A stretch of DNA of 60,523 nt, taken from Oscillospiraceae bacterium. GTDB lineage: Bacteria; Bacillota; Clostridia; Oscillospirales; Oscillospiraceae. Below, one piece after another: positions 18,972 through 34,723 of the stretch; positions within the stretch are counted from its first letter, which is position 1, and each line of letters starts with the position of its first letter. Position numbers and translations under genes: made by a program. The notes beneath the pieces were generated by a model. It ran no database searches. It was given only the letters and a program-made list of their open reading frames with translations, and had not been told where the DNA came from. The stretch covers positions 1 through 60,523 of the forward strand of contig JAAWDI010000054.1 of assembly GCA_022793685.1 (NCBI GenBank). The letters are read 5' to 3'.

Positions 18972-19123
18972 TTATGAAGGTTTGGGGCGCATATACGGTG
19001 CTGGGGGCGGTGCTTTGGCGGAAGGCCCTGTTGGGGTGAAATCCCCCAGTCTCTCCGGAGTGGACCGACAGTCAGAAAGAAAACGGACGGGAAACGCATC
19101 TCGTCCGGTGAGGCTGAATGCGT
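18972..19123 (+). other. GC-rich intergenic segment with possible RNA-like structure
   Basis: No gene. Around 19033-19110 there are a GGGG-TGAAAT-CCCC hairpin and later CCGACAGT and CGGACGGGAAAC blocks that loosely recall conserved pieces of the FMN aptamer. The full set and order are not present, and the segment lies upstream of the promoter at 19124. Function unknown. Confidence 0.3.
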
Positions 19124-19152
19124 TTGCTTTTGCAGGCGGGCTATGCTATGAT
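19124..19152 (+). promoter_or_regulatory. Sigma-A-type promoter of the GH5 gene
   Basis: TTGCTT (19124-19129), 17-bp spacer, TATGAT (19147-19152), about 65 bp before the ATG at 19217. Confidence 0.7.
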
Positions 19153-19216
19153 ACTTTTGATTTTTCAGCTGCGCAGGCTTGCGTTTCCCAATCAAAGAAA
19201 GCGGGGAGGGAGCTTC

Positions 19217-20776
19217 ATGGTAAAACGCGGGCGCATACTTTTTGCACTTCTGCTCTGCGGTGTAATGTTGGCGCTTCCCGCCGCTCAAGCGTCCTTTTCG
19301 GATGTGGTGAGAGGAAGCTGGTATAAAGCGGCGGTGGAGGAGATAGCCCGTTCCGGACAGCTTTCCGGCTATCCGGACGGCACCTTTCGGCCTGACGCGC
19401 CCATTACCGCCGCGGAGTTCGTTACCCTTGTGACCCGCTGCGCAGGCCGCAAAGGGGCAACGGGGCAGAACAGCCACTGGGCGGCCAAGGAGATGGAGGC
19501 CGCCCTTCAGGCGGGGTGGTACGATTGGGACGAGATACCCCCTACTGCTGAGACTTACGATAAGCCCATTACCCGCCAGCTTGCGGTGAAGGTGCTGATG
19601 CGGGCGCTGCTGCCCGACGAGCGCGGGGATTACAGCACGGAAGCCGCCAAAATCACCGACCTTGCGGCATTGGACGGCCGCTATTACGAGGCGGTCTTTG
19701 CGGCATACGCCAGCGGAATCGTGCGGGGGGACGCCTCCGGCACCTTCCGCCCCAAAAGCGGCATGAGCCGCGCGGAGACCTGCGTTATCATTCAGCGGGC
19801 CATGGCCAAGACGGGCGGCGGCGTATCCCAGCCAGAGCCGCCGACTCAGCCACCGGAGCAGCCGGTGACCGCCATACGGGGCGGCGCGTCGGAAAACGGC
19901 TGGCTGCAGGTGAAGGGTGTCCAGCTTTGCAGCGAGGCGGGAGAGCCGATGGTACTGCGGGGCATGAGCACCCACGGAATACAGTGGTACGGTCAGTTTG
20001 CGTCTGAACAATCTGTCCGCAATACGGCGGACGCCGGGGCGAACGTGTTCCGTGTGGCCATGTACACGGCGGAGGGCGGCTATTTGAGCCAGCCGGAGGC
20101 CATGAAGCAGAAAGCGGCCGCCGCCGTTGATGCGGCCATTGCCAACGACATGTATGTGATTTTAGACTGGCATATTCTCTCCGACGGCAATCCCATGTCC
20201 CATGTGAACGAGGCCAAGGCGTTTTTCTCCGAAATGGCGGAGCGTTACCGGAACACGCCCAACGTGATTTATGAGATATGCAACGAGCCGAACGGCAACG
20301 TGAGCTGGGGGAAGGACGTCAAGCCCTATGCCCAGCAGGTGGTGGCGGCTATTCGGGCGAAGTCGCCCCGGGCGGTCATCCTCATCGGTAGCGGCACATG
20401 GAGCCAAGATATTCACACGGCGGCTGCCGACCCGGTGGCAGGGGAGAATCTGATGTACACCCTCCACTTTTACGCAGGCACCCACGGCGCGTCCCTGCGC
20501 ACCCGCATTGACGAGGCACGCCAGAAGGGAATCGCGGTATTCGTTTCGGAGTGGGGAACCAGCCGCGCCGACGGGGGCGGAGGAGTTTACCTGAAGGAGT
20601 CCAAGGAGTGGCTGGATTTTCTCGACGAGCGGGACATCAGCTGGTGCAACTGGTCTCTGTGCGACAAGAGGGAAAGCTCTGCCGCCCTGCGGCCCGGCAC
20701 GTCGCCCTTCAAAGCGTGGACGGAAAGCGACCTGAGCGAGTCGGGACGGTTTGTGTTCTCTCGGTTCAAGGCATAA
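19217..20776 (+). CDS. SLH-anchored GH5 cellulase-family glycoside hydrolase, 519 aa
   Basis: Extracellular, wall-attached retaining beta-glycanase, most likely endo-beta-1,4-glucanase-like. Residues 1-25 are a signal peptide (cleavage near AQA). Residues ~26-200 contain three SLH modules (FSDVVRGSWYKAAVEEIA...GYPDGTFRPD; a degenerate second; a third ending GDASGTFRPKSG). A Pro/Gln linker follows, then the GH5 domain from ~226 to the end. Visible GH5 landmarks are LRGMSTHG, ILDWH, YEICNEPNG (acid/base Glu357), HFYAGTH and VFVSEWG (nucleophile Glu445). I chose ATG 19217, not the upstream in-frame 19118, because GGGGAGGGAG precedes it and the signal peptide starts there. SLH modules sit at the N-terminus here, unlike in the two neighbouring SLH proteins. 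Exact substrate is not readable. Confidence 0.92.
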   Translation: MVKRGRILFALLLCGVMLALPAAQASFSDVVRGSWYKAAVEEIARSGQLSGYPDGTFRPDAPITAAEFVTLVTRCAGRKGATGQNSHWAAKEMEAALQAGWYDWDEIPPTAETYDKPITRQLAVKVLMRALLPDERGDYSTEAAKITDLAALDGRYYEAVFAAYASGIVRGDASGTFRPKSGMSRAETCVIIQRAMAKTGGGVSQPEPPTQPPEQPVTAIRGGASENGWLQVKGVQLCSEAGEPMVLRGMSTHGIQWYGQFASEQSVRNTADAGANVFRVAMYTAEGGYLSQPEAMKQKAAAAVDAAIANDMYVILDWHILSDGNPMSHVNEAKAFFSEMAERYRNTPNVIYEICNEPNGNVSWGKDVKPYAQQVVAAIRAKSPRAVILIGSGTWSQDIHTAAADPVAGENLMYTLHFYAGTHGASLRTRIDEARQKGIAVFVSEWGTSRADGGGGVYLKESKEWLDFLDERDISWCNWSLCDKRESSAALRPGTSPFKAWTESDLSESGRFVFSRFKA

Positions 20777-25653: not shown

Positions 25654-25669
25654 GCGCGAAAAAGGACAG

Positions 25670-25699
25670 CCCCGAACCGGAGACGGTTCGGGGTTTTTT
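25670..25699 (+). terminator. Terminator of spoVAC
   Basis: 9-bp GC stem (25670-25678 with 25685-25693), 6-nt loop, then six T. Confidence 0.9.
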
Positions 25700-25814: not shown

Positions 25815-25891
25815 GTTTCTTAGATTGTTATCTTTTTTTCAACAAAGAATGAGCAATGGGTAAAATGAAAAGGAATCGGAGGTCAAGAAGG

Positions 25892-28570
25892 GTGTTAAAG
25901 TACGATTTTCTCAAAGCGGCTGACATCGCAATCGACGCATCCTCCCTGCAAAAGTACGGCGGATTATCCGTACAGACTGCGGCCGTTTCTCAGGATGCCG
26001 GAGAGGTGCAGAAGATACGCACCACCTGCCGGGCCTGTATCTCCAACTGCGGCGTAATTGCCACAGTGAAGAACGGGCGCGTTGTGAAGCTGGAGGGCGA
26101 CCCCAAGAACAAGATGAGCCGGGGCCGGATGTGCGCCAAGGGACTCAGCGGCATTCAGGCGCTTTACAATCCCAACCGCAACAAGTATCCTTTGGTGCGC
26201 GTGGGCAAGCGCGGCGAAAACAAGTGGAAGCGCATCTCGTGGGACGATGCGCTGACGCAGATTGCAACCAAGCTGCTGGACATTAAGGCTAAGTACGGCG
26301 CCGAAGCCGTCATGTGCTCCACCGGCGGCGGCGGCAACCCCCAGTTCACCAGCCCCGCCCGCTTCTGCAACCTGTTTGGCACCCCCAACTGGTTTGAGCC
26401 GGGCTGCGCCCAGTGCTACCTGCCCCGTCAGGTGGCCTATGGCCTGATGTACGGTGGCACCGACCCCAGCATCGCGGACTCCAATTCGCTGGAAATCTAT
26501 TACGCCGACAGAACGCCCATGAAGTCCCTTTGCCTGTGGGGTACCGACCCGTCCTACTCCTGCCCCGGGCAGGGCGGCGGCGCGCTGGTCGAGCTGCGCG
26601 CCAAGGGCGTGAAAACGGTGGTCATCGACCCCCGCCTGACTCCGGACGCGGCCAAGGCCGACGTGTGGCTGCCCATCCGTCCCGGCACCGACGTGGCGCT
26701 TCAGCTGGCGTGGATTCGCTATATGCTGGAGCACAAGCTCTACAACGAGGAGTTCGTGCTGAAATGGACGAACCTGCCGTATCTTGTCAACGTGGAGACA
26801 GGGGAGTGCTGGCGCGCTGGCAAGAGCACCCATCCCAAGCTGCCTGACACCTTTATGGTGTGGGACAAGAAGACCAATTCCGCACAGCCGTTGGAGTACC
26901 CGTGGAACGACGCCTATGACGTTGCGCTGGAGGGGACTTGGGAAATCGACGGCGTTACATATAAGACCGGCTTCCAGCTTTTGAAGGAGCGCTGCGAGGA
27001 GTGGACGCTTGAAAAGGCGGCGGAGGTCTGCTGGCTTGATGCTGATATGATTGAGAAAGGCATCCGCACCTTCTGTGAGAACACCCCCGGCGGCCTGTGC
27101 ATCGGCGTGGCCACCGACCAGAACCCCAACTCGGTGCAGGCCGGTATGGGCGCTGTTATCATCGACCTGCTGCTGGGCAACGTGGAGCAGCCCGGTTCTC
27201 TGTTGCAGCGCTTCGGCGCCCTTCAGCCCACCGACTTCTCCGTGGTGCCCTTCTGTGAGAGCAAGCTGCCCTATGAGCAGCTTGTCAAGCGTTTGGGCGG
27301 CATCGAGTACAAGGGCCTGCATATGTGGCACGCGGCCCACGCGCCCTCCTGCCTTCAGGCTATCAAGACCGGCAAGCCCTACCCCGTCAAGGCGTGGCTT
27401 GACCGCTCCGGCAACAAGCTGGCGGTGCTGGCAAACGGCACCGAGTGGGTGGAGGCCATGGACAATCTTGACCTGATTGTTCATATGTATATGTATCCCA
27501 CCTCTTTCTCCGCTTACGCAGATTATTTGCTGCCTACCACGGAGTGGCTTGAGACCAACTATCTCCAGCAGGTGTGCAACACCGTGTCCATCCGCCAGCC
27601 GGTGGACCACCTGTATGAGACCATCGACGAGTGCCTTATCTGGTCGCTGCTGACCCAGAAGTGCGCCGAGCTGGGCGACAAGGACTGCGCCCGCGGCTTT
27701 GACGCGGAATATATGGGCAAGGATTTCCCCTGCTGGGACAACATGACCGAGGTCATGGAGCACTTCACCAAGCGCTATCTGAACATGACGTGGGATGAGT
27801 TTAAAGAGGCGTCCAAGGACGGCCCCATCGAGTACATGCCGGAGGAGGACTTCCTGCACTATTATGTGTACAAGGATATCCGTCCTGAGACCGGAAAGCC
27901 CCGCGGTTTCAACACCTCCACCCGCAAGTGCGAGCTTTACGGCGAGTGCTTCATCACCCTGTCCCGCACCGGTATGCCCTTTAGCGGCGAGCCGCTGCCC
28001 CCGGCCTCCCACGATTATGACCCGCTGCCCTATTACATGGAGCCCCACGAGAGCCCGCTACCTGAGTGCGACCTCTCCAAGGAGTATCCGCTGGTTATGA
28101 CCAACGGCCGGATTCCCTTTTATCATCACAGTACCCTGCGGAACATTCCGTGGCTGCGTGAGATTTATCCCGCTCCCGAGCTGTGGATTAACCCAGAGAC
28201 CGCAGAGCAGTACGGCGTTGCCGACGGCGACTGGGTTTGGGTGGAGTCCCTGCGCAACAAGGTGCGGGCCATCGCCAACGTCACGCCGGGCATCGGCAAG
28301 GGTGTGGTGTATATGGAGCGGTTCTGGAACCCGGAGAAGCTCAACACCGAGACCCACGGCTGGAAAGAGATGAACGTCAACCTGCTTTCCAAGTCCGACG
28401 CGCCCTATAACGACGTGGTGGGCACCTACACCCTCCGCGGCTATCAGGTCAAGGTCTCCAAGGCGGACGGCCCTCCGGAGGGCGTGTGGCTGGAGCCGCG
28501 CGACTTCCGTCCGTGGCTGCCTGAGGCGATGGAGCATACCCCGGAGCTTTCCAAAAAGGAGGTGTGGTGA
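25892..28570 (+). CDS. Molybdopterin (Mo/W) oxidoreductase catalytic subunit, DMSO-reductase superfamily, 892 aa
   Basis: Predicted cytoplasmic bis-pterin Mo or W enzyme. Residues 46-53 and a later Cys form a [4Fe-4S] motif (CRACISNC, then Cys in GRMCAKG). Next comes the superfamily core: WKRISWDDAL, FGTPNWFEPG, LCLWGTDPSYS, KTVVIDPRLTPDAAKADVWLPIRPGTD. The C-terminal dinucleotide-binding domain has ELWINPETAEQYGVADGDWVWV. Cys172 and Cys175 in GCAQCYLPRQ sit where the metal ligand is expected; Cys175 is the better candidate. I use GTG 25892 because GGAGG lies 9 nt before it; an ATG at 25856 has no ribosome site. No Tat or Sec signal is seen. Relatives include thiosulfate/polysulfide reductases, acetylene hydratase, transhydroxylase and catechol dehydroxylases, so the substrate is not readable. 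It heads an operon with its own electron-transfer subunits and cofactor genes. Confidence 0.9.
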   Translation: MLKYDFLKAADIAIDASSLQKYGGLSVQTAAVSQDAGEVQKIRTTCRACISNCGVIATVKNGRVVKLEGDPKNKMSRGRMCAKGLSGIQALYNPNRNKYPLVRVGKRGENKWKRISWDDALTQIATKLLDIKAKYGAEAVMCSTGGGGNPQFTSPARFCNLFGTPNWFEPGCAQCYLPRQVAYGLMYGGTDPSIADSNSLEIYYADRTPMKSLCLWGTDPSYSCPGQGGGALVELRAKGVKTVVIDPRLTPDAAKADVWLPIRPGTDVALQLAWIRYMLEHKLYNEEFVLKWTNLPYLVNVETGECWRAGKSTHPKLPDTFMVWDKKTNSAQPLEYPWNDAYDVALEGTWEIDGVTYKTGFQLLKERCEEWTLEKAAEVCWLDADMIEKGIRTFCENTPGGLCIGVATDQNPNSVQAGMGAVIIDLLLGNVEQPGSLLQRFGALQPTDFSVVPFCESKLPYEQLVKRLGGIEYKGLHMWHAAHAPSCLQAIKTGKPYPVKAWLDRSGNKLAVLANGTEWVEAMDNLDLIVHMYMYPTSFSAYADYLLPTTEWLETNYLQQVCNTVSIRQPVDHLYETIDECLIWSLLTQKCAELGDKDCARGFDAEYMGKDFPCWDNMTEVMEHFTKRYLNMTWDEFKEASKDGPIEYMPEEDFLHYYVYKDIRPETGKPRGFNTSTRKCELYGECFITLSRTGMPFSGEPLPPASHDYDPLPYYMEPHESPLPECDLSKEYPLVMTNGRIPFYHHSTLRNIPWLREIYPAPELWINPETAEQYGVADGDWVWVESLRNKVRAIANVTPGIGKGVVYMERFWNPEKLNTETHGWKEMNVNLLSKSDAPYNDVVGTYTLRGYQVKVSKADGPPEGVWLEPRDFRPWLPEAMEHTPELSKKEVW

Positions 28571-28572
28571 AG

Positions 28573-29193
28573 ATGAAGAAATATACCTTCGTCATTGACG
28601 TAGACCGCTGCATTGGCTGCAAGGGCTGTCAGGTCTCCTGCAAGCAGGAGAACGGCGTGGCCCTCGGCGCGTGCCGCAACGCGGTCAAGACGGTCGGCCC
28701 CATGGGGGTCTATCCCAACGTTCAGATGTATTTTCTGCCTTCCCCCTGCCAGCATTGCGACGAGCCGAGCTGCGTAGAGGTCTGCCCCACCGGCGCCTGC
28801 TATAAGGACCCGGAGGACGGCGTTGTGCGCATCGACCGCAACGTGTGCATCGGCTGCAAGAGCTGTGCCGAGGCCTGCCCCTACAAGGTGAACACCTTCA
28901 ATCAGGAGCTTCAGGTCATGGACAAGTGCAACCTGTGCGCCCAGCTCCGCGAGGTGGGCGAGGAGCCTGCCTGCGTGAAGAACTGCTGCGGCCACGCGTT
29001 GCATTTCGGTGACATCAACGACCCGGAGAGCGAGGTCTCCAAGCTGCTGAAGGAGGCGGGTGAGGAGCACGTCCACACCCTGCGCGACTTGGGCAACGCC
29101 CCCGGTGTGCGCTACATTCTGCGCCGCGGCGAGTGGGTGGACGTTCTCCCGCAGGACTGTGAAGAGACGAAAAGGGGGCGTAAAGGATGCTGA
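28573..29193 (+). CDS. Four-cluster [4Fe-4S] ferredoxin subunit (NrfC/PhsB/DmsB type), 206 aa
   Basis: Electron-transfer subunit for the preceding molybdoenzyme. Sixteen cysteines in four groups are visible: CIGCKGCQVSC; CQHCDEPSCVEVCP; CIGCKSCAEACP; and CNLCAQL plus CVKNCC. This matches DmsB/NrfC/PhsB-type subunits carrying four cubane clusters. The GHALHFGDINDPESEVSKLL segment is the usual family tail. I take ATG 28573, 10 nt after AAAGGAGG and 2 bp past the upstream stop; GTG codons at 28564 and 28567 are alternatives. No signal peptide or membrane anchor is present and no membrane subunit gene follows, so the complex is probably soluble. The end overlaps the TorD-AsrA start by 7 bp, indicating coupling. 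Confidence 0.93.
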   Translation: MKKYTFVIDVDRCIGCKGCQVSCKQENGVALGACRNAVKTVGPMGVYPNVQMYFLPSPCQHCDEPSCVEVCPTGACYKDPEDGVVRIDRNVCIGCKSCAEACPYKVNTFNQELQVMDKCNLCAQLREVGEEPACVKNCCGHALHFGDINDPESEVSKLLKEAGEEHVHTLRDLGNAPGVRYILRRGEWVDVLPQDCEETKRGRKGC

Positions 29194-30890
29194 CCGCAAC
29201 GGAATATACCCAGATTATGAAGAACCGCGCAAACTTCTACTCCTTCCTCCAGCGCTTTTATATGCAGGAGGTTTCCGCCGACTTCATGGAGCAGCTCAAG
29301 GGCATGACCTTTCCGCAGGACTGCGGCCAGAGCGAGCTTCAGGCGGGTTATGACCTGCTGGAAAGCGCCCTTGCCGCCCTGCCCGCCGATTGGAACGACG
29401 AGCTGGCCGCCGATTTCGCCAAGGTGTTTCTCGCTGCGGGGGAGCATCAGGGCAAGGCCGCGTTCCCCTATGAGTCGGTTTACACCAGCAAGAAGGGCCT
29501 TGTCATGCAGGAGGCTTGGGAGCAGGTCAAGGCGGTGTATAGCGCTATGAACCTTGCGATGGAAGGCGTCGCCGCCGACATCAAAGAGGACCACATCGCC
29601 ATTGAGCTTCAGTACATGGCCTATCTGAGCGGCCGCAGCGCCGCCACGGCGGAGGAGTCCCTGCTGAAGGAGCAGGCCTCCTTCCTGAAGGAGCACCTGC
29701 TGAACTGGGTTCCCGCCCTCTGCGCCGACATGGAGAAGTACGCCCGCACTGATTTCTACAAGGCGGTGGCAAAGCTGACCGTCGGCTATCTGAAGCTGGA
29801 CGCCGCCATGCTGGACGAGGTGATGGCGGGCGGCACGGACGGCGAAAGCGTAAGCTACACCGTCAGCACCGGCGAGTTCGACAAGATTTTGCAGAAGCTG
29901 TCCAAGGATTATAAGATTTACGCCCCCAAGCTGACCGGAAAACACGGCGCCAAGGGACAGGACATCGTCCGTTACGGCGAGGTCAAGTCCGCAAGTGAAA
30001 TCGTCTATGACCGCCAGTCCGACTTCTCCGCCAAGGAGGCCTATTACCCCGTCATCCAGACGATGATTTACTTCACGGAGAACGATAGCACCGAAAGCCA
30101 GCTGAAGGACGAGCGCGGCATCCTGCTGTTCGCCCACCCCTGCGATGTCAACGCTATGGCGCGGCTGGACAACATCTTCCTGAAGAACGGCGACCACGCC
30201 GACCTGTACTATGCCCGCCTGCGGGATAAGGTCAAGGTGGTGCTGCTGGAGTGCTCCGGAAGCTATGAGAATTGCTACTGCGTCTCTATGGGCACCAACG
30301 TGGCCGAGAAGTACAGCATGGCAGTCCGCATGGGCAAGGACGAAATCAAGGTGCAGGTAAAGGACAGCTTCTTCACCCCCTGCTTCACTGGCGCGAAGGA
30401 GAGCGATTTTGCCCCCAAATTCGTCACGGAGAACGAGCGTAAGGCCACCCTGCCCGTCATCGAGGGCAAGGAGGACGTGAAGCTGGCCACCGGCTTGGAG
30501 TTCTGGAGCGACTATGACGACGCCTGCATCAGCTGCGGCGGCTGTAATGCGGTTTGCCCCACCTGCTCCTGCTTTGACACGGTGGACGTTATCTATGACG
30601 AAAACAGCAAGGACGGCGAACGCCGCCGCAAGTGGTCCTCCTGTATGCTGGACACCTTCACCATGACGGCGGGCGGCGCCAAGGCTCGTAAGACTCCCGG
30701 CGCCAACATGCGCTTTAAGACCCTGCATAAGGTCTATGACTACAAGCAGCGCTTCGGCACGGAAGGCCATATGTGCGTGGGCTGCGGCCGCTGCATCAAC
30801 CGGTGCCCCAAGGACATCGACTTCCTGCTGACCATCAACCGCTTCCACGATGAGCTGAAAGACGCCAAAGCCGGAAAGGAGGGCAAATAA
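29187..30890 (+). CDS. TorD-like chaperone fused to anaerobic sulfite reductase subunit A-like (AsrA) ferredoxin, 567 aa
   Basis: Two-part protein. Residues ~1-215 are all-helical and match TorD/DmsD-type molybdoenzyme maturation chaperones (NFYSFLQRFYM, FAKVFLAAG, AAFPYESVYTS, EDHIAIELQYMAYL). Residues ~220-567 resemble AsrA: GILLFAHPCDVNAMARLD, then two [4Fe-4S] motifs, CISCGGCNAVCPTCSC (from residue ~447) and CVGCGRCINRCPKD (~530). AsrA passes electrons between AsrB and a terminal reductase. The fusion places the maturation function for the molybdoenzyme and the electron relay in one chain. Starts at ATG 29187 inside the end of the ferredoxin gene; its stop overlaps asrB by 1 bp. The functional reading is inference. 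Confidence 0.88.
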   Translation: MLTATEYTQIMKNRANFYSFLQRFYMQEVSADFMEQLKGMTFPQDCGQSELQAGYDLLESALAALPADWNDELAADFAKVFLAAGEHQGKAAFPYESVYTSKKGLVMQEAWEQVKAVYSAMNLAMEGVAADIKEDHIAIELQYMAYLSGRSAATAEESLLKEQASFLKEHLLNWVPALCADMEKYARTDFYKAVAKLTVGYLKLDAAMLDEVMAGGTDGESVSYTVSTGEFDKILQKLSKDYKIYAPKLTGKHGAKGQDIVRYGEVKSASEIVYDRQSDFSAKEAYYPVIQTMIYFTENDSTESQLKDERGILLFAHPCDVNAMARLDNIFLKNGDHADLYYARLRDKVKVVLLECSGSYENCYCVSMGTNVAEKYSMAVRMGKDEIKVQVKDSFFTPCFTGAKESDFAPKFVTENERKATLPVIEGKEDVKLATGLEFWSDYDDACISCGGCNAVCPTCSCFDTVDVIYDENSKDGERRRKWSSCMLDTFTMTAGGAKARKTPGANMRFKTLHKVYDYKQRFGTEGHMCVGCGRCINRCPKDIDFLLTINRFHDELKDAKAGKEGK

Positions 30891-31678
30891 TGGAGAACAT
30901 TATGCTTTCCAAGCCCCATAAGGTCGTAAAAATCATGAAGGAGACGCAGGCGGAGTACACCTTCCGGGTGGAGTACACCGGCGAAGCAAAACACGGCCAG
31001 TTCTTCATGCTGTCCATCCCCAAGGTGGGCGAGGCCCCCATTTCCGTCAGCGGCAAGGGCGACGATTATGTGGAGTTCACCATCCGCAAGGTGGGCCGTC
31101 TGACCGAGGGCATCTTCGGTCTGGCCCCCGGCGAGAACCTGTTCATGCGCGGCCCCTACGGCAACGCGTTCCCCGTGGAGGAGTTCAAGAACAAAGACCT
31201 GCTGGTCATCTGCGGCGGCACCGGTATGGCGCCCGTCCGCACTACCCTGAACTACTTCTACAACCATCCCGACGTGTGCAAGTCGGTGAATCTGATTGCC
31301 GGCTTTAAGGATTTGAACAGCGTGCTGTTCACCGACGAGCTGGAGAAGTGGAAGAGCCGCTTTAACACTTGGTACTGCTTGGACAACATGGAGGCCGACG
31401 GCTTCCATAAGGGCTTTGTCACCGAGTACATCAAAGAGGTGCCCATCTCCTCCTTCGAGGACTACAACATCGTCATCGTCGGCCCTCCGGCCATGATGCG
31501 TTTCTCCGCGCAGGAGTGCATCAAGAACGGCGCAGAGCTGGAGAAAATTTGGGTGTCCTTCGAGCGGAAGATGTCCTGCGCTGTGGGCAAATGCGGTCAC
31601 TGCAAGATAAACGAGACCTATGTTTGTCTCGAAGGCCCGGTGTTCAACTACACCGTGGCCAAAGACCTGCTGGATTAA
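30890..31678 (+). CDS. AsrB-like FAD/NAD(P)H-dependent oxidoreductase subunit with [2Fe-2S] motif, 262 aa
   Basis: NAD(P)H-oxidising flavoprotein of the ferredoxin-reductase fold, as in the anaerobic sulfite reductase B subunit and dihydroorotate dehydrogenase K subunit. Residues ~10-95 are the FAD-binding barrel (APISVSGK, LFMRGPYGNAFP). ICGGTGMAPVRTTL is the nucleotide-binding loop and VIVGPPAMM the conserved substrate-domain strand. The C-terminal SFERKMSCAVGKCGHCKIN plus YVCLEGPVF is the iron-sulfur Cys motif typical of AsrB. Length is normal. It is the fourth gene of the operon (1-bp overlap). No asrC follows: the next feature is the cofactor riboswitch. I infer that it feeds reducing equivalents through AsrA and the ferredoxin to the molybdoenzyme, or the reverse. 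Confidence 0.9.
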   Translation: MENIMLSKPHKVVKIMKETQAEYTFRVEYTGEAKHGQFFMLSIPKVGEAPISVSGKGDDYVEFTIRKVGRLTEGIFGLAPGENLFMRGPYGNAFPVEEFKNKDLLVICGGTGMAPVRTTLNYFYNHPDVCKSVNLIAGFKDLNSVLFTDELEKWKSRFNTWYCLDNMEADGFHKGFVTEYIKEVPISSFEDYNIVIVGPPAMMRFSAQECIKNGAELEKIWVSFERKMSCAVGKCGHCKINETYVCLEGPVFNYTVAKDLLD

Positions 31679-31684
31679 ATCAAA

Positions 31685-31787
31685 AACTGTATCAGCACTC
31701 CGAGCACGGGGGGCTAAAGCCGCAAGGCCATGCCGCCCGGGCCAAGACCTTGAGTCTTCGGGCCGGCGGGGAAACCCGCCGGCCTTC
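31685..31787 (+). promoter_or_regulatory. Molybdenum/tungsten-cofactor (Moco/Tuco) riboswitch
   Basis: The conserved core is plain: CACTCCGAGC (31696-31705), GCCGCAAGGCCATGCCGCC (31719-31737), CGGGCCAAG (31738-31746), then a long GC hairpin with a GAAA tetraloop (31761-31784). These match the Moco RNA motif, which senses molybdenum cofactor. The segment between GAGC and the GCCGCAAGG block is very short, so the P3 stem of classic Moco RNAs seems missing; that shape was linked to tungsten-cofactor (Tuco) versions. It precedes mobA, mobB and moeA, the expected targets. No promoter is seen between asrB and this element. Confidence 0.85.
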
Positions 31788-31834
31788 CCTGTTGAAAAGG
31801 AGCGCACTTTTTACGGCGGGGTCATCGCCGTAGG

Positions 31835-31890: not shown

Positions 31891-33018
31891 TTGTCTGGAA
31901 ATGTGACGACAATAGCCTGCGGAGCGGGTACGGTGAAAAAGACCTTCCGCAGTACCGTCTCCATGGACAAGGAGCGGGCCGCCCGCGGTGTTGCTGCGCC
32001 CTGCGGCCTTGCGGGGGCAGTCCTCGCCGCGGAAGGGAATACCCTCACAGTGGAAGCGCCGTCCGGCACTCCTTTGACTGCCGCGGCGGATGAAGGCACG
32101 GTGTGGGCGCTGACCGATTGGCTCAAACGCTTTGACGGCGCAGCAAAAAGTGCTTTCGGCAAAAGCGTGGTACTGTCTGATTTTGCATTAGAGCAGTTTT
32201 GCACAACGGGCGGCAAGGTTTTCGGTACGGATTTTGCCGCGTGGCGGTTTGGGGCATCCTATGAGAACCACGCCGCTTTGACAGCTGCCCTGCGTTTGGC
32301 GGGGCGGGCGGAGCTGGCAGACCGCCTTATGGGAGAGGGGGCGCGGCAGTACGGTGTACCGCCGGAGGCGCTGCTCCAAGCGGCGGAGCGGTGGCAGCTG
32401 CATTTCCACCGCAGGGAGACGCGGCGGCCGTTGCTTGACGGCACAACCGCCGTCCTGCTGGCGGGCGGGAAATCCTCCCGCATGGGGCGGCCCAAGCACC
32501 GGCTGGATTGGGAGGGCTATCCCTTTTGGGAGCACATTCTCCATACGGCGCGGCCCTTTTGCCATGCGGCGGCGTCGGTGGCGCGCCGTCAGCCGGAATT
32601 TGAGGGCAGACTGCCCCAGTGGGAGGACGAGCGGCAAGAGGTTGGCCCAGTGGGGGCGCTGAGTACCATATTCCGGCGCGCCGAAACGCCGTTGGCGCTG
32701 ATGCTTTCCTGTGACGCGCCCTTTCTGACAGAGGAGGTATTCTGTCTGCTGCTGGACGCCTTACAGGACGGGGACGACTGCGTCATTCCCAGCGTTGACG
32801 GCCGCAGCAGCCCGCTGCTGGGGCTGTATCGCCGGAAAGCCCTTGCGGCGGCAGACGAGGCGCTGGAGCGCGGCGAGCGCCGCGTTCGAGCGGTGTTAGA
32901 GAAGCTGCGCGTGCGGGAGGTACAGGTGCCGCCAAGCTGTGCGGAGGCTTTGCGGAACATCAACACCCCGGAGGATTATAAAAAGGCCCTCGCTGGGCGG
33001 GAAGGAGGCGCGCCGTGA
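31891..33018 (+). CDS. mobA: MobA molybdenum cofactor guanylyltransferase with an extra N-terminal domain, 375 aa
   Basis: Residues ~185-375 are MobA: AVLLAGGKSSRMGRPK is the GTP-binding loop, and LMLSCDAPFLTEEV and NINTPEDY are conserved later motifs. It attaches GMP to the pterin to make the guanine-dinucleotide cofactor used by DMSO-reductase-family enzymes such as the one upstream. Residues 1-~184 precede a complete MobA and are not recognised. They include CGAGTVKKTFRSTVSMDKERAARG, a VVLSDFALEQFCTTGG segment and a helical FGASYENHAALTAALRLAGRAELADRL part. A link to pterin handling or metal sensing is only a guess. TTG start at 31891 with AAGGGAG 8 nt upstream. The end overlaps mobB by GTGA. 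Confidence 0.85.
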   Translation: MSGNVTTIACGAGTVKKTFRSTVSMDKERAARGVAAPCGLAGAVLAAEGNTLTVEAPSGTPLTAAADEGTVWALTDWLKRFDGAAKSAFGKSVVLSDFALEQFCTTGGKVFGTDFAAWRFGASYENHAALTAALRLAGRAELADRLMGEGARQYGVPPEALLQAAERWQLHFHRRETRRPLLDGTTAVLLAGGKSSRMGRPKHRLDWEGYPFWEHILHTARPFCHAAASVARRQPEFEGRLPQWEDERQEVGPVGALSTIFRRAETPLALMLSCDAPFLTEEVFCLLLDALQDGDDCVIPSVDGRSSPLLGLYRRKALAAADEALERGERRVRAVLEKLRVREVQVPPSCAEALRNINTPEDYKKALAGREGGAP

Positions 33019-33503
33019 TACCTGTCTATTCTGTGGTGGCCTATTCGGGCACCGGAAAGACGACCCTGCTGGAAAAGCTGATACCGGAACTGAGAAAGCT
33101 GGGCCTGCGGGTGGCGGTGCTCAAGCACGACGCCCACGACTTTGAAATAGACCGGGAAGGAAAGGACAGCTACCGTTTCACAGCCGCGGGCGCGGACGTG
33201 ACGGCGCTTGCGTCCGGGCGGAAGGCCGTCGTCATGGAGAACCGTCCGGTGGAACCGGAGGTGTTGCTCGGCATGATACGCGATGTGGACTTGATTTTGA
33301 CCGAAGGCTTCAAATTCGGCGACTGGAAAAAGATACTGGTGGCGCGCGCCGCCGCTGGGACGGGCTTTGCGGTGGAGCCAGACCAATGCTTTGCCGTGGC
33401 GTCCGATATGGCGGTGGAAACGGCCGCGCCGGTGTTTGGGCTGGACGACGCCGCCGGACTGGCGGGGTATATCGCCGCTGACGTGGAAAGGGAGAGCGGG
33501 TGA
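33015..33503 (+). CDS. mobB: MobB molybdopterin-guanine dinucleotide biosynthesis adapter, 162 aa
   Basis: P-loop GTPase that assists MobA and cofactor delivery. AYSGTGKTTLLEKLIPEL is the Walker A region; LKHDAHDFEIDREGKDSYRFTAAGAD is the family signature segment; VDLILTEGFKFGDWKKI carries the Walker B-like and conserved EGFK motif. Length is normal. GTG start overlaps the mobA stop (GTGA), with GGAGG 6 nt before. Its own stop overlaps the moeA start the same way, so mobA-mobB-moeA is a tightly coupled unit below the riboswitch. Confidence 0.93.
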   Translation: MIPVYSVVAYSGTGKTTLLEKLIPELRKLGLRVAVLKHDAHDFEIDREGKDSYRFTAAGADVTALASGRKAVVMENRPVEPEVLLGMIRDVDLILTEGFKFGDWKKILVARAAAGTGFAVEPDQCFAVASDMAVETAAPVFGLDDAAGLAGYIAADVERESG

Positions 33504-34723
33504 GCAGCATGAAAAAGACCGTTACGGCAGACGAGGCGCGGGACATTCTGCTGTCCCTGTCGGTACAGCGTGAAACGGAGACCTTGTCCTTGCGGGCGGC
33601 CCGCGGGCGGGTGCTGGCGGAGAACGTGACTGCCAGTGTGCCCATGCCGCCCTTTGACCGCAGCCCCTTTGACGGCTATGCCGTCCGATGGGAGGACACG
33701 GCAAACGCCGCGCAATCGTTGCCCGCCGTTTTGCGCATTGTGGAGGAGCTTCCCGCGGGGACGGCGCCCACCGAAACGGTGGGGGCGGGTATGGCCGCCA
33801 AAATTTTGACGGGCGCGCCCATTCCGGCGGGGGCGGACTCCGTCATCAAATTTGAAGAAACAGAACGGGACGGCGGCACGGTTCGCATTTTCGCGCCGCT
33901 GAAGCCATGCCAAAATGTGATTTATCGGGGCGAGGAGCTGGAGCAGGGCGCTGTTCTTCTGGAACAGGGCGCGCTGCTGGCCGCGCCGGAGTTGGGAATG
34001 CTGGCCGCCCAAGGGCGGGAGCGGTGCGCCGTATATAAGCGCCCAACGGCGGCGCTGTTCACCACCGGCTCAGAGCTGACGCCGCCGGGGGTGCCGCTGG
34101 AGCCGGGGAAAATCTACGACAGCAACAACGCCATGCTGGCCGCCATGCTGGAGGAGGCAGGTTTTGACTGCCTCGACCTCGGCGCGGTGGAGGACGACGC
34201 GGAACGCATCGCGGCGCGGCTGGAGCAGGCGCTGGAGCAGGCGGATATTGTCATTACCACCGGCGGCGCGTCGGTGGGGGACTATGATTTTGCCCACGCC
34301 GCCGTCGAGCGGGTGGGCGCTGAGGTGCTGTTCCGCAAAATCAGCATGAAGCCAGGCTCCTGCGTGGTGGCGGCTGTCAAGGGGAACAAACATATCCTCA
34401 GCCTGTCGGGCAATCCAGGGGCGGCTGCGGTGTGCCTGCTGCGGGTGGCCATGCCCTACCTGAAGCGGCAGTGCGGCCGCTGTGACGTGCTGCCGGAGGA
34501 AATCGTGCTGCCGCTGAAGGAAGCGGTGCGGAAGGCCAGCCCGGTGACCCGCCTGCTTCGGGGCAGACTGGAAATCACAGACGGGCGGGCCGTCTTTGCG
34601 GAAAATCCCCGGCAGGGCAACGGTATGATTGCCTCTCTGCGGGGCTTTGAGCTGCTGGGAGAGATTCCGGCAGGGTCTCCGCCGTTGGAGGCGGGAACGC
34701 TTATCAAGGCATACCGGTTTTAA
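33500..34723 (+). CDS. moeA: MoeA molybdopterin molybdenumtransferase, 407 aa
   Basis: Inserts molybdate (or tungstate, in MoeA paralogs of W-users) into adenylylated molybdopterin. Landmarks are PPFDRSPFDGYAVR, MAAKILTGAPIPAGADSVIKFEE, IYDSNNAMLAAML, TTGGASVGDYDFA, FRKISMKPG and LSLSGNPGAAAVC, ending with the C-terminal barrel (RGRLEITDGRAVFAENPRQGNGMIASL). Length is normal. GTG start in the mobB stop; an ATG three codons later is an alternative. The riboswitch class upstream hints that tungsten could be the metal, but sequence alone does not separate Mo from W MoeA. Confidence 0.94.
   Translation: MSSMKKTVTADEARDILLSLSVQRETETLSLRAARGRVLAENVTASVPMPPFDRSPFDGYAVRWEDTANAAQSLPAVLRIVEELPAGTAPTETVGAGMAAKILTGAPIPAGADSVIKFEETERDGGTVRIFAPLKPCQNVIYRGEELEQGAVLLEQGALLAAPELGMLAAQGRERCAVYKRPTAALFTTGSELTPPGVPLEPGKIYDSNNAMLAAMLEEAGFDCLDLGAVEDDAERIAARLEQALEQADIVITTGGASVGDYDFAHAAVERVGAEVLFRKISMKPGSCVVAAVKGNKHILSLSGNPGAAAVCLLRVAMPYLKRQCGRCDVLPEEIVLPLKEAVRKASPVTRLLRGRLEITDGRAVFAENPRQGNGMIASLRGFELLGEIPAGSPPLEAGTLIKAYRF

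Follow-up and report, generated by a model that had tools for sequence, protein, structure and literature searches.

We studied a four-gene operon in a 60,523-nt stretch of DNA from an Oscillospiraceae bacterium (contig JAAWDI010000054.1, hereafter the window), which would encode a soluble molybdenum enzyme driven by NADH. The operon encodes a Mo/W catalytic subunit of the bis-pyranopterin guanine dinucleotide (bis-PGD) type (CAT), a four-cluster ferredoxin subunit (FDX), a fusion of TorD with AsrA, and AsrB (Table 1). With a probability of about 0.72, the product is a soluble NADH:acceptor Mo oxidoreductase that is fed by NAD(P)H via AsrA and AsrB. An earlier reading of the same DNA (the original prediction) had proposed a cytoplasmic complex linking NAD(P)H to a Mo/W site; synteny, folds and sequence relatives, tree placement and the lack of twin-arginine (Tat) and transmembrane signals all support that proposal.

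The four genes are all on the forward strand, and in the list of open reading frames (ORFs) each gene abuts the next or overlaps it by a few bases. The proposed order of Mo catalytic subunit, four-cluster ferredoxin, TorD-AsrA fusion and AsrB was borne out by ORFs and profiles. The gene span given at first, from 25892, places the genes correctly but not the first start: the ORF begins at 25856, and 25892 is an internal GTG, an alternative start that fits the N-termini of the homologs equally well or better. A search for other genomes with this gene order had been suggested with the original prediction. Scanning named genome contigs turned up 23 loci whose CAT orthologs show about 60-68% identity, and whole-genome searches added more. 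The order CAT-FDX-TorD-AsrA-AsrB was kept in 26 of the 33 loci readable for at least 3.3 kb beyond CAT, spanning Oscillospiraceae, Lachnospiraceae, Eubacteriaceae and Clostridiaceae; some of these loci come from near relatives, so the 26 are not 26 independent events. The order is non-random. AsrA and AsrB stand at the place of a membrane anchor in 26 loci, and TorD is missing from two of the 33 (L044, L050). TorD and AsrA are fused in 14 loci and split in 13; the fusion recurs in independent assemblies and is genuine. The CAT clade is rare: the genome of the window aside, 3 of 391 genomes sampled across the class and 2 of 398 across the phylum had a strong match, and one of the 2 was a distant relative only. 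Among the 25 best plasmid-borne records listed, no relative exceeded 29% identity.

Profiles and fold matches identify the electron-input module. In the fusion protein, Nitrate_red_del matched residues 49-180 and the AsrA model TIGR02910 scored 392 bits against a cut-off of 323; a maturation-chaperone domain occupies about residues 1-210, and an AsrA/sulfhydrogenase-beta electron-transfer domain about residues 220-567. The AlphaFold2 (AF2) model of the fusion (mean predicted local distance difference test score, pLDDT, 75.7) matched the redox-enzyme maturation chaperones YcdY and DmsD over its TorD half and the beta subunit of Pyrococcus furiosus sulfhydrogenase I (SHI; 9nf0_B, TMt 0.70) over its AsrA half. 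AsrB scored 347 bits with TIGR02911 (cut-off 288.6). By sequence, the closest PDB chains are SHI beta for the AsrA domain and SHI gamma for AsrB, and these beta/gamma homologs retain the FAD, NAD-binding and Fe-S sites of a sulfhydrogenase-type NAD(P)H input module. SHI (9nez/9nf0) resembles the operon in both input subunits by sequence and in beta also by fold, but its catalytic half is a NiFe hydrogenase, and its NAD loop reads Thr-Arg in the gamma subunit where AsrB has Leu-Asp. This Asp is invariant in AsrB; as an acidic residue in the loop by which NADPH and NADH are told apart, it suggests a preference for NADH.

CAT belongs to the DMSO (dimethyl sulfoxide) reductase superfamily, with the three Pfam domains Molybdop_Fe4S4, Molybdopterin and Molydop_binding, an N-terminal [4Fe-4S] site and the metal-ligand position. 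Cys58, Cys61, Cys65 and Cys93, the predicted [4Fe-4S] ligands, are invariant in 21 orthologs, as is Lys95. Cys187, the predicted metal ligand, aligns with the cysteines that serve as metal ligands in PsrA and acetylene hydratase. FDX matched Fer4_11 and related models, and its 16 cysteines fall into four motifs. CAT is the sole molybdopterin (PF00384) enzyme found in the metagenome-assembled genome (MAG) of the window.

The phylogeny of the catalytic subunit, also suggested with the original prediction, placed CAT in a single clade of its own (100/100 in a tree of 27 rows) and not inside a Phs-type clade. Grouping with Phs/Psr was rejected by the approximately unbiased test (p-AU 0.001), so thiosulfate reductase, listed at first among the superfamily relatives, is not a close one; the PhsA model scored 288 bits on CAT against a cut-off of 694. 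Nor does CAT fall in the DmsA/YnfE group or on the formate dehydrogenase branch. Of the characterised enzymes tested, acetylene hydratase is the nearest: the CAT clade lies within a larger clade with this enzyme and unlabelled Oscillospiraceae enzymes of 700-800 residues (100/99), in a tree where acetylene hydratase and PsrA are represented by partial sequences from PDB alignments and sit on long branches. Grouping with acetylene hydratase alone was neither shown nor rejected (p-AU 0.146). Acetylene hydratase (2e7z) is also the best PDB match of CAT. It is, by contrast, a non-redox enzyme, and its active-site Asp13, which follows the second cluster cysteine, is replaced in CAT by Ile62, invariant in 21 orthologs; we therefore rejected the identification of CAT as an acetylene hydratase. 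Two distant CAT-like enzymes (L119:8945-12717 and L130:1928-5512; 29-32% identity) have no Tat leader and occur with FDX and a DmsC-like anchor.

The operon subunits of the window contain no RRxFLK twin-arginine leader and no transmembrane-like segment, that is, no 19 residues with a mean hydropathy above 1.2. The original claim that anchor and Tat signal are lacking stands for this operon but not for the whole clade. At one locus (L118:9191-15765), a CAT ortholog of 61% identity carries a full Tat leader (MLNRRDFLKSTAITGAAAAFGG...) and heads the order CAT-FDX-DmsC-type anchor-TorD with no AsrAB; the anchor was assigned by eye, having no NCBIfam match. With its Tat leader and DmsC, this locus shows AsrAB standing in for the quinol module elsewhere in the clade, and it is clear evidence that the wiring of a single catalytic clade was swapped between quinol and NADH donors. 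It is nested beside the AsrAB-wired Clostridium group in the tree, so either wiring may have come first. No AsrAB-wired CAT has a twin-arginine motif; many of them have a short DFLxA-like motif at the site of RRxFLK in Tat leaders, possibly a Tat remnant and chaperone site. A Tat flavoprotein akin to vinylphenol reductase is encoded divergently upstream of the L118 operon.

We infer from these data the following route. NADH would reduce the FAD and Fe-S site of AsrB, from which electrons would pass to two [4Fe-4S] clusters of the AsrA domain, to the four [4Fe-4S] clusters of FDX, and through the [4Fe-4S] cluster of CAT to the bis-PGD Mo site with its Cys187 ligand, where an acceptor would be reduced in the cytosol. 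The electron-input half of the complex would be an NAD(P)H module of the sulfhydrogenase I/Asr type, and a catalytic pair of the DMSO reductase superfamily would replace the NiFe or siroheme site. In the cytosol, the TorD domain of the fusion would supply CAT with its cofactor, perhaps by recognising the DFLxA motif at the CAT N-terminus. Physiologically, the enzyme probably serves to dispose of electrons and so to regenerate NAD+. Bifurcation is not proposed, because there is a single flavin-type subunit and no NfnB/GltD-like partner.

For the acceptor, the position of CAT offers some guidance. Acetylene hydratase is the closest characterised relative of the catechol dehydroxylases (PMC7028382). 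As described in PMC7028382 and PMC11585353, these enzymes either have a membrane anchor or are paired just with a small Fe-S protein, and some are soluble; in having no AsrAB they differ from the operon of the window. Because CAT lies in the acetylene hydratase clade, we weakly infer an oxygenated organic acceptor, phenolic or otherwise hydroxylated ahead of S- or N-oxides, at somewhat less than even odds. In one Oscillospiraceae genome (L053:1999-5070), one of the unlabelled Mo enzymes of the acetylene hydratase superclade adjoins a gene with a 2,4-diacetylphloroglucinol (DAPG)-hydrolase domain, which hints at phloroglucinol-type metabolism in this family. This neighbour and the published dehydroxylase kinship are leads to phenolic substrates and no proof. 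The fuller picture would be a distinct class of cytosolic NADH-driven Mo enzymes with which gut Clostridia and acetogens strip organic compounds, plant phenolics for example, of oxygen or hydroxyl groups. These enzymes would serve as a soluble electron sink, in a clade that switches between AsrAB and DmsC and with a chaperone fused to an electron-transfer subunit; we regard this picture as possible rather than probable.

An NADH-dependent reductase of sulfoxides, N-oxides or inorganic sulfur oxyanions, a soluble counterpart of Dms/Phs, is in our estimate unlikely. The best NCBIfam scores of CAT come from the PhsA and DMSO-reductase models, far under their cut-offs, and the authors who described a similar operon in Clostridium ljungdahlii proposed sulfoxide metabolism for it, alongside sulfur-limitation genes (PMC5640608). 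Nevertheless, CAT groups neither with Phs/Psr nor with DmsA/YnfE, and no sulfur genes were found recurring beside the operon. The operon does share with DmsABC and PhsABC a catalytic subunit of the DMSO reductase superfamily, a four-cluster ferredoxin and a TorD-family chaperone, but it has neither their membrane anchor nor a Tat leader, and the original view that its wiring differs from both systems was upheld by these absences, by AsrAB standing in the anchor's place and by the position of CAT outside both clades. Oxidative operation, in which CAT would oxidise or hydroxylate its substrate and AsrAB would pass the electrons to NAD+, making NADH, seems improbable. The superfamily includes the oxidative formate and ethylbenzene dehydrogenases, and an SHI-type module is reversible in principle; on the other side, CAT does not belong to the formate dehydrogenase branch, the enzyme that AsrAB is known to feed is a reductase, and the DmsC-wired L118 operon is laid out as a quinol-fed reductase.

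AsrA and AsrB also invite comparison with the anaerobic sulfite reductase AsrABC. In the operon, both subunits pass the AsrA and AsrB cut-offs, but in place of AsrC it has a Mo/W catalytic subunit and a DmsB-type ferredoxin. The predicted absence of AsrC held in the operon and, above background, in the MAG (73% complete), where TIGR02912, with its cut-off of 324 bits, gave no more than 20.9 bits. AsrC scored above the cut-off in 8 of 38 carrier genomes (3 of 31 carriers, and 5 of an additional 7, all from the Clostridium-type family f44), always at a separate locus; the weaker TIGR02912 matches in other carriers, judged by score and frame length, are probably other siroheme-type reductases. 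In the three AsrC-bearing genomes of the 31, a second asrA lies about 1-2 kb from asrC. The AsrA tree sets the Mo-operon sequences (26 rows) and those of true asrABC operons (3 rows) on opposite sides of a branch with support 96/99.

One carrier locus, L127, which we take to be the C. ljungdahlii operon, has five separate forward-strand genes with modules and order as in the window, about 205 kb from an asrC on the reverse strand; strand, gene count and this spacing agree with that assignment. This type of operon had already received a brief mention in print in 2017: CLJU_RS12535-12555 was described as encoding an enzyme of the DMSO reductase family, one subunit of which is an Asr-like flavoprotein, upregulated with H2/CO2 and syngas and of unknown function (PMC5640608). 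TorD and AsrA are separate genes there, whereas they are fused in the window. The asrABC genes of the same organism are regulated differently from the Mo operon, in opposite directions on H2/CO2 (PMC5640608). Hence, of the original prediction's thought that a co-regulated asrC elsewhere would speak against it, an asrC elsewhere does occur, but in C. ljungdahlii it is not co-regulated. A literature search on the operon's locus tags found nothing beyond PMC5640608; PMC10949509, which mentions AsrA/AsrB and molybdopterin enzymes, concerns true AsrABC. That AsrA and AsrB are leftovers of a sulfite reductase operon, or partners of an AsrC elsewhere, next to the Mo genes by accident, is very improbable: they score as AsrA/AsrB equivalogs and some carriers do have AsrC, but the conserved order in four families, the separate AsrA branch, the second asrA beside asrC, the opposite regulation and the fusion of AsrA to a Mo-enzyme chaperone all stand against it, and carrier counts, AsrA branch and C. 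ljungdahlii regulation led us to reject an AsrC elsewhere as the general explanation.

Several observations weigh against a soluble, NADH-driven Mo reductase acting on organic compounds. Complete AsrAB is missing from 5 of the 33 loci and is therefore dispensable to the catalytic pair: L045 and L049 have no AsrAB (2 of 33), CAT-FDX-TorD operons without any AsrA or AsrB occur at L045, L046 and L049, and in a reduced form found in Oscillospiraceae/Flavonifractor genomes (L063:6310-7692, L065:5404-6792) the TorD-AsrA fusion ends before the Fe-S domain and no AsrB follows. Electron flow could be reversed, with substrate oxidation yielding NADH. The link to catechol dehydroxylases is indirect, through the shared relation to acetylene hydratase. 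The AF2 model of CAT, built from a shallow alignment, is poor (pLDDT 61.6); its top fold matches are all superfamily members and confirm the superfamily only, and active-site geometry was not taken from it. Finally, the neighbouring genes vary (ROK, LysR, GntR or PucR regulators, an old yellow enzyme (OYE)-type reductase, a vinylphenol-reductase-like protein), and no conserved pathway or transporter genes hinting at a substrate were found in the operon neighbourhoods. The recurrent neighbours are mainly a ROK regulator (7 loci) and molybdenum cofactor (Moco) genes, which do not make a pathway from which a substrate could be read. The ROK-family regulator, at L076:6367-7545 and six more loci, is an unexpected neighbour for a redox operon; in Clostridium its place is taken by LysR-like regulators.

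In the window, a Moco riboswitch, overlooked in the original prediction, starts eight bases 3' of the AsrB stop and is followed by mobA, mobB and moeA. Another locus (L061) has the same layout, with the riboswitch directly 3' of AsrB. The riboswitch alignment contains a P3-like stem, a feature of Moco riboswitches that leans to Mo over W, and so may weakly favour Mo here. For the N-terminal 180 or so residues of MobA, neither Pfam nor NCBIfam gave a match at the thresholds applied. Upstream of the operon lies spoVAC (Pfam/NCBIfam profiles), and a terminator-like hairpin, found by consensus scan only, may set the operon apart from the upstream genes. Farther upstream, at 19118-20776 on the forward strand, N-terminal SLH-like repeats followed by a glycoside-hydrolase-like (cellulase-type) region were recognised by eye only.

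Table 1. Features of the operon and its flanks in the window.
Feature	Position	Strand	Basis or remark
Terminator-like hairpin 3' of spoVAC	25668..25695	+	consensus scan only; 12-bp stem, then T-rich tail
CAT (bis-PGD Mo/W catalytic subunit)	25856-28570	+	904 aa; Pfam/NCBIfam
FDX (DmsB/NrfC-type four-cluster ferredoxin subunit)	28564-29193	+	Fer4_11, NrfC/DmsB/TtrB relatives; 16 Cys
TorD-AsrA fusion	29187-30890	+	profiles, sequence relatives, fold matches
AsrB (FAD/NAD(P)H-binding subunit, PyrK-type Fe-S site)	30890-31678	+	TIGR02911; closest PDB SHI gamma
Moco riboswitch (RF01055)	31686..31818	+	81 bits against gathering score 36
MobA-type guanylyltransferase with unclassified N-terminal region of ~180 aa	31891..33018	+	Pfam/NCBIfam
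MobB	33015..33503	+	TIGR00176 above cut-off
MoeA	33500..34723	+	PF03453/PF00994/PF03454

Carriers of this operon will tend to be labelled with 'anaerobic sulfite reductase subunit A/B', since both subunits pass the curated cut-offs. Because 30 of the 38 carriers have no AsrC above the cut-off, sulfite reduction is liable to be over-predicted from these labels. If the soluble NADH:acceptor oxidoreductase proposed here is correct, a direct, membrane-independent route from NADH to molybdenum would be added to gut Clostridia and to C. ljungdahlii, and in the latter the operon could act as a redox sink amenable to genetic study.

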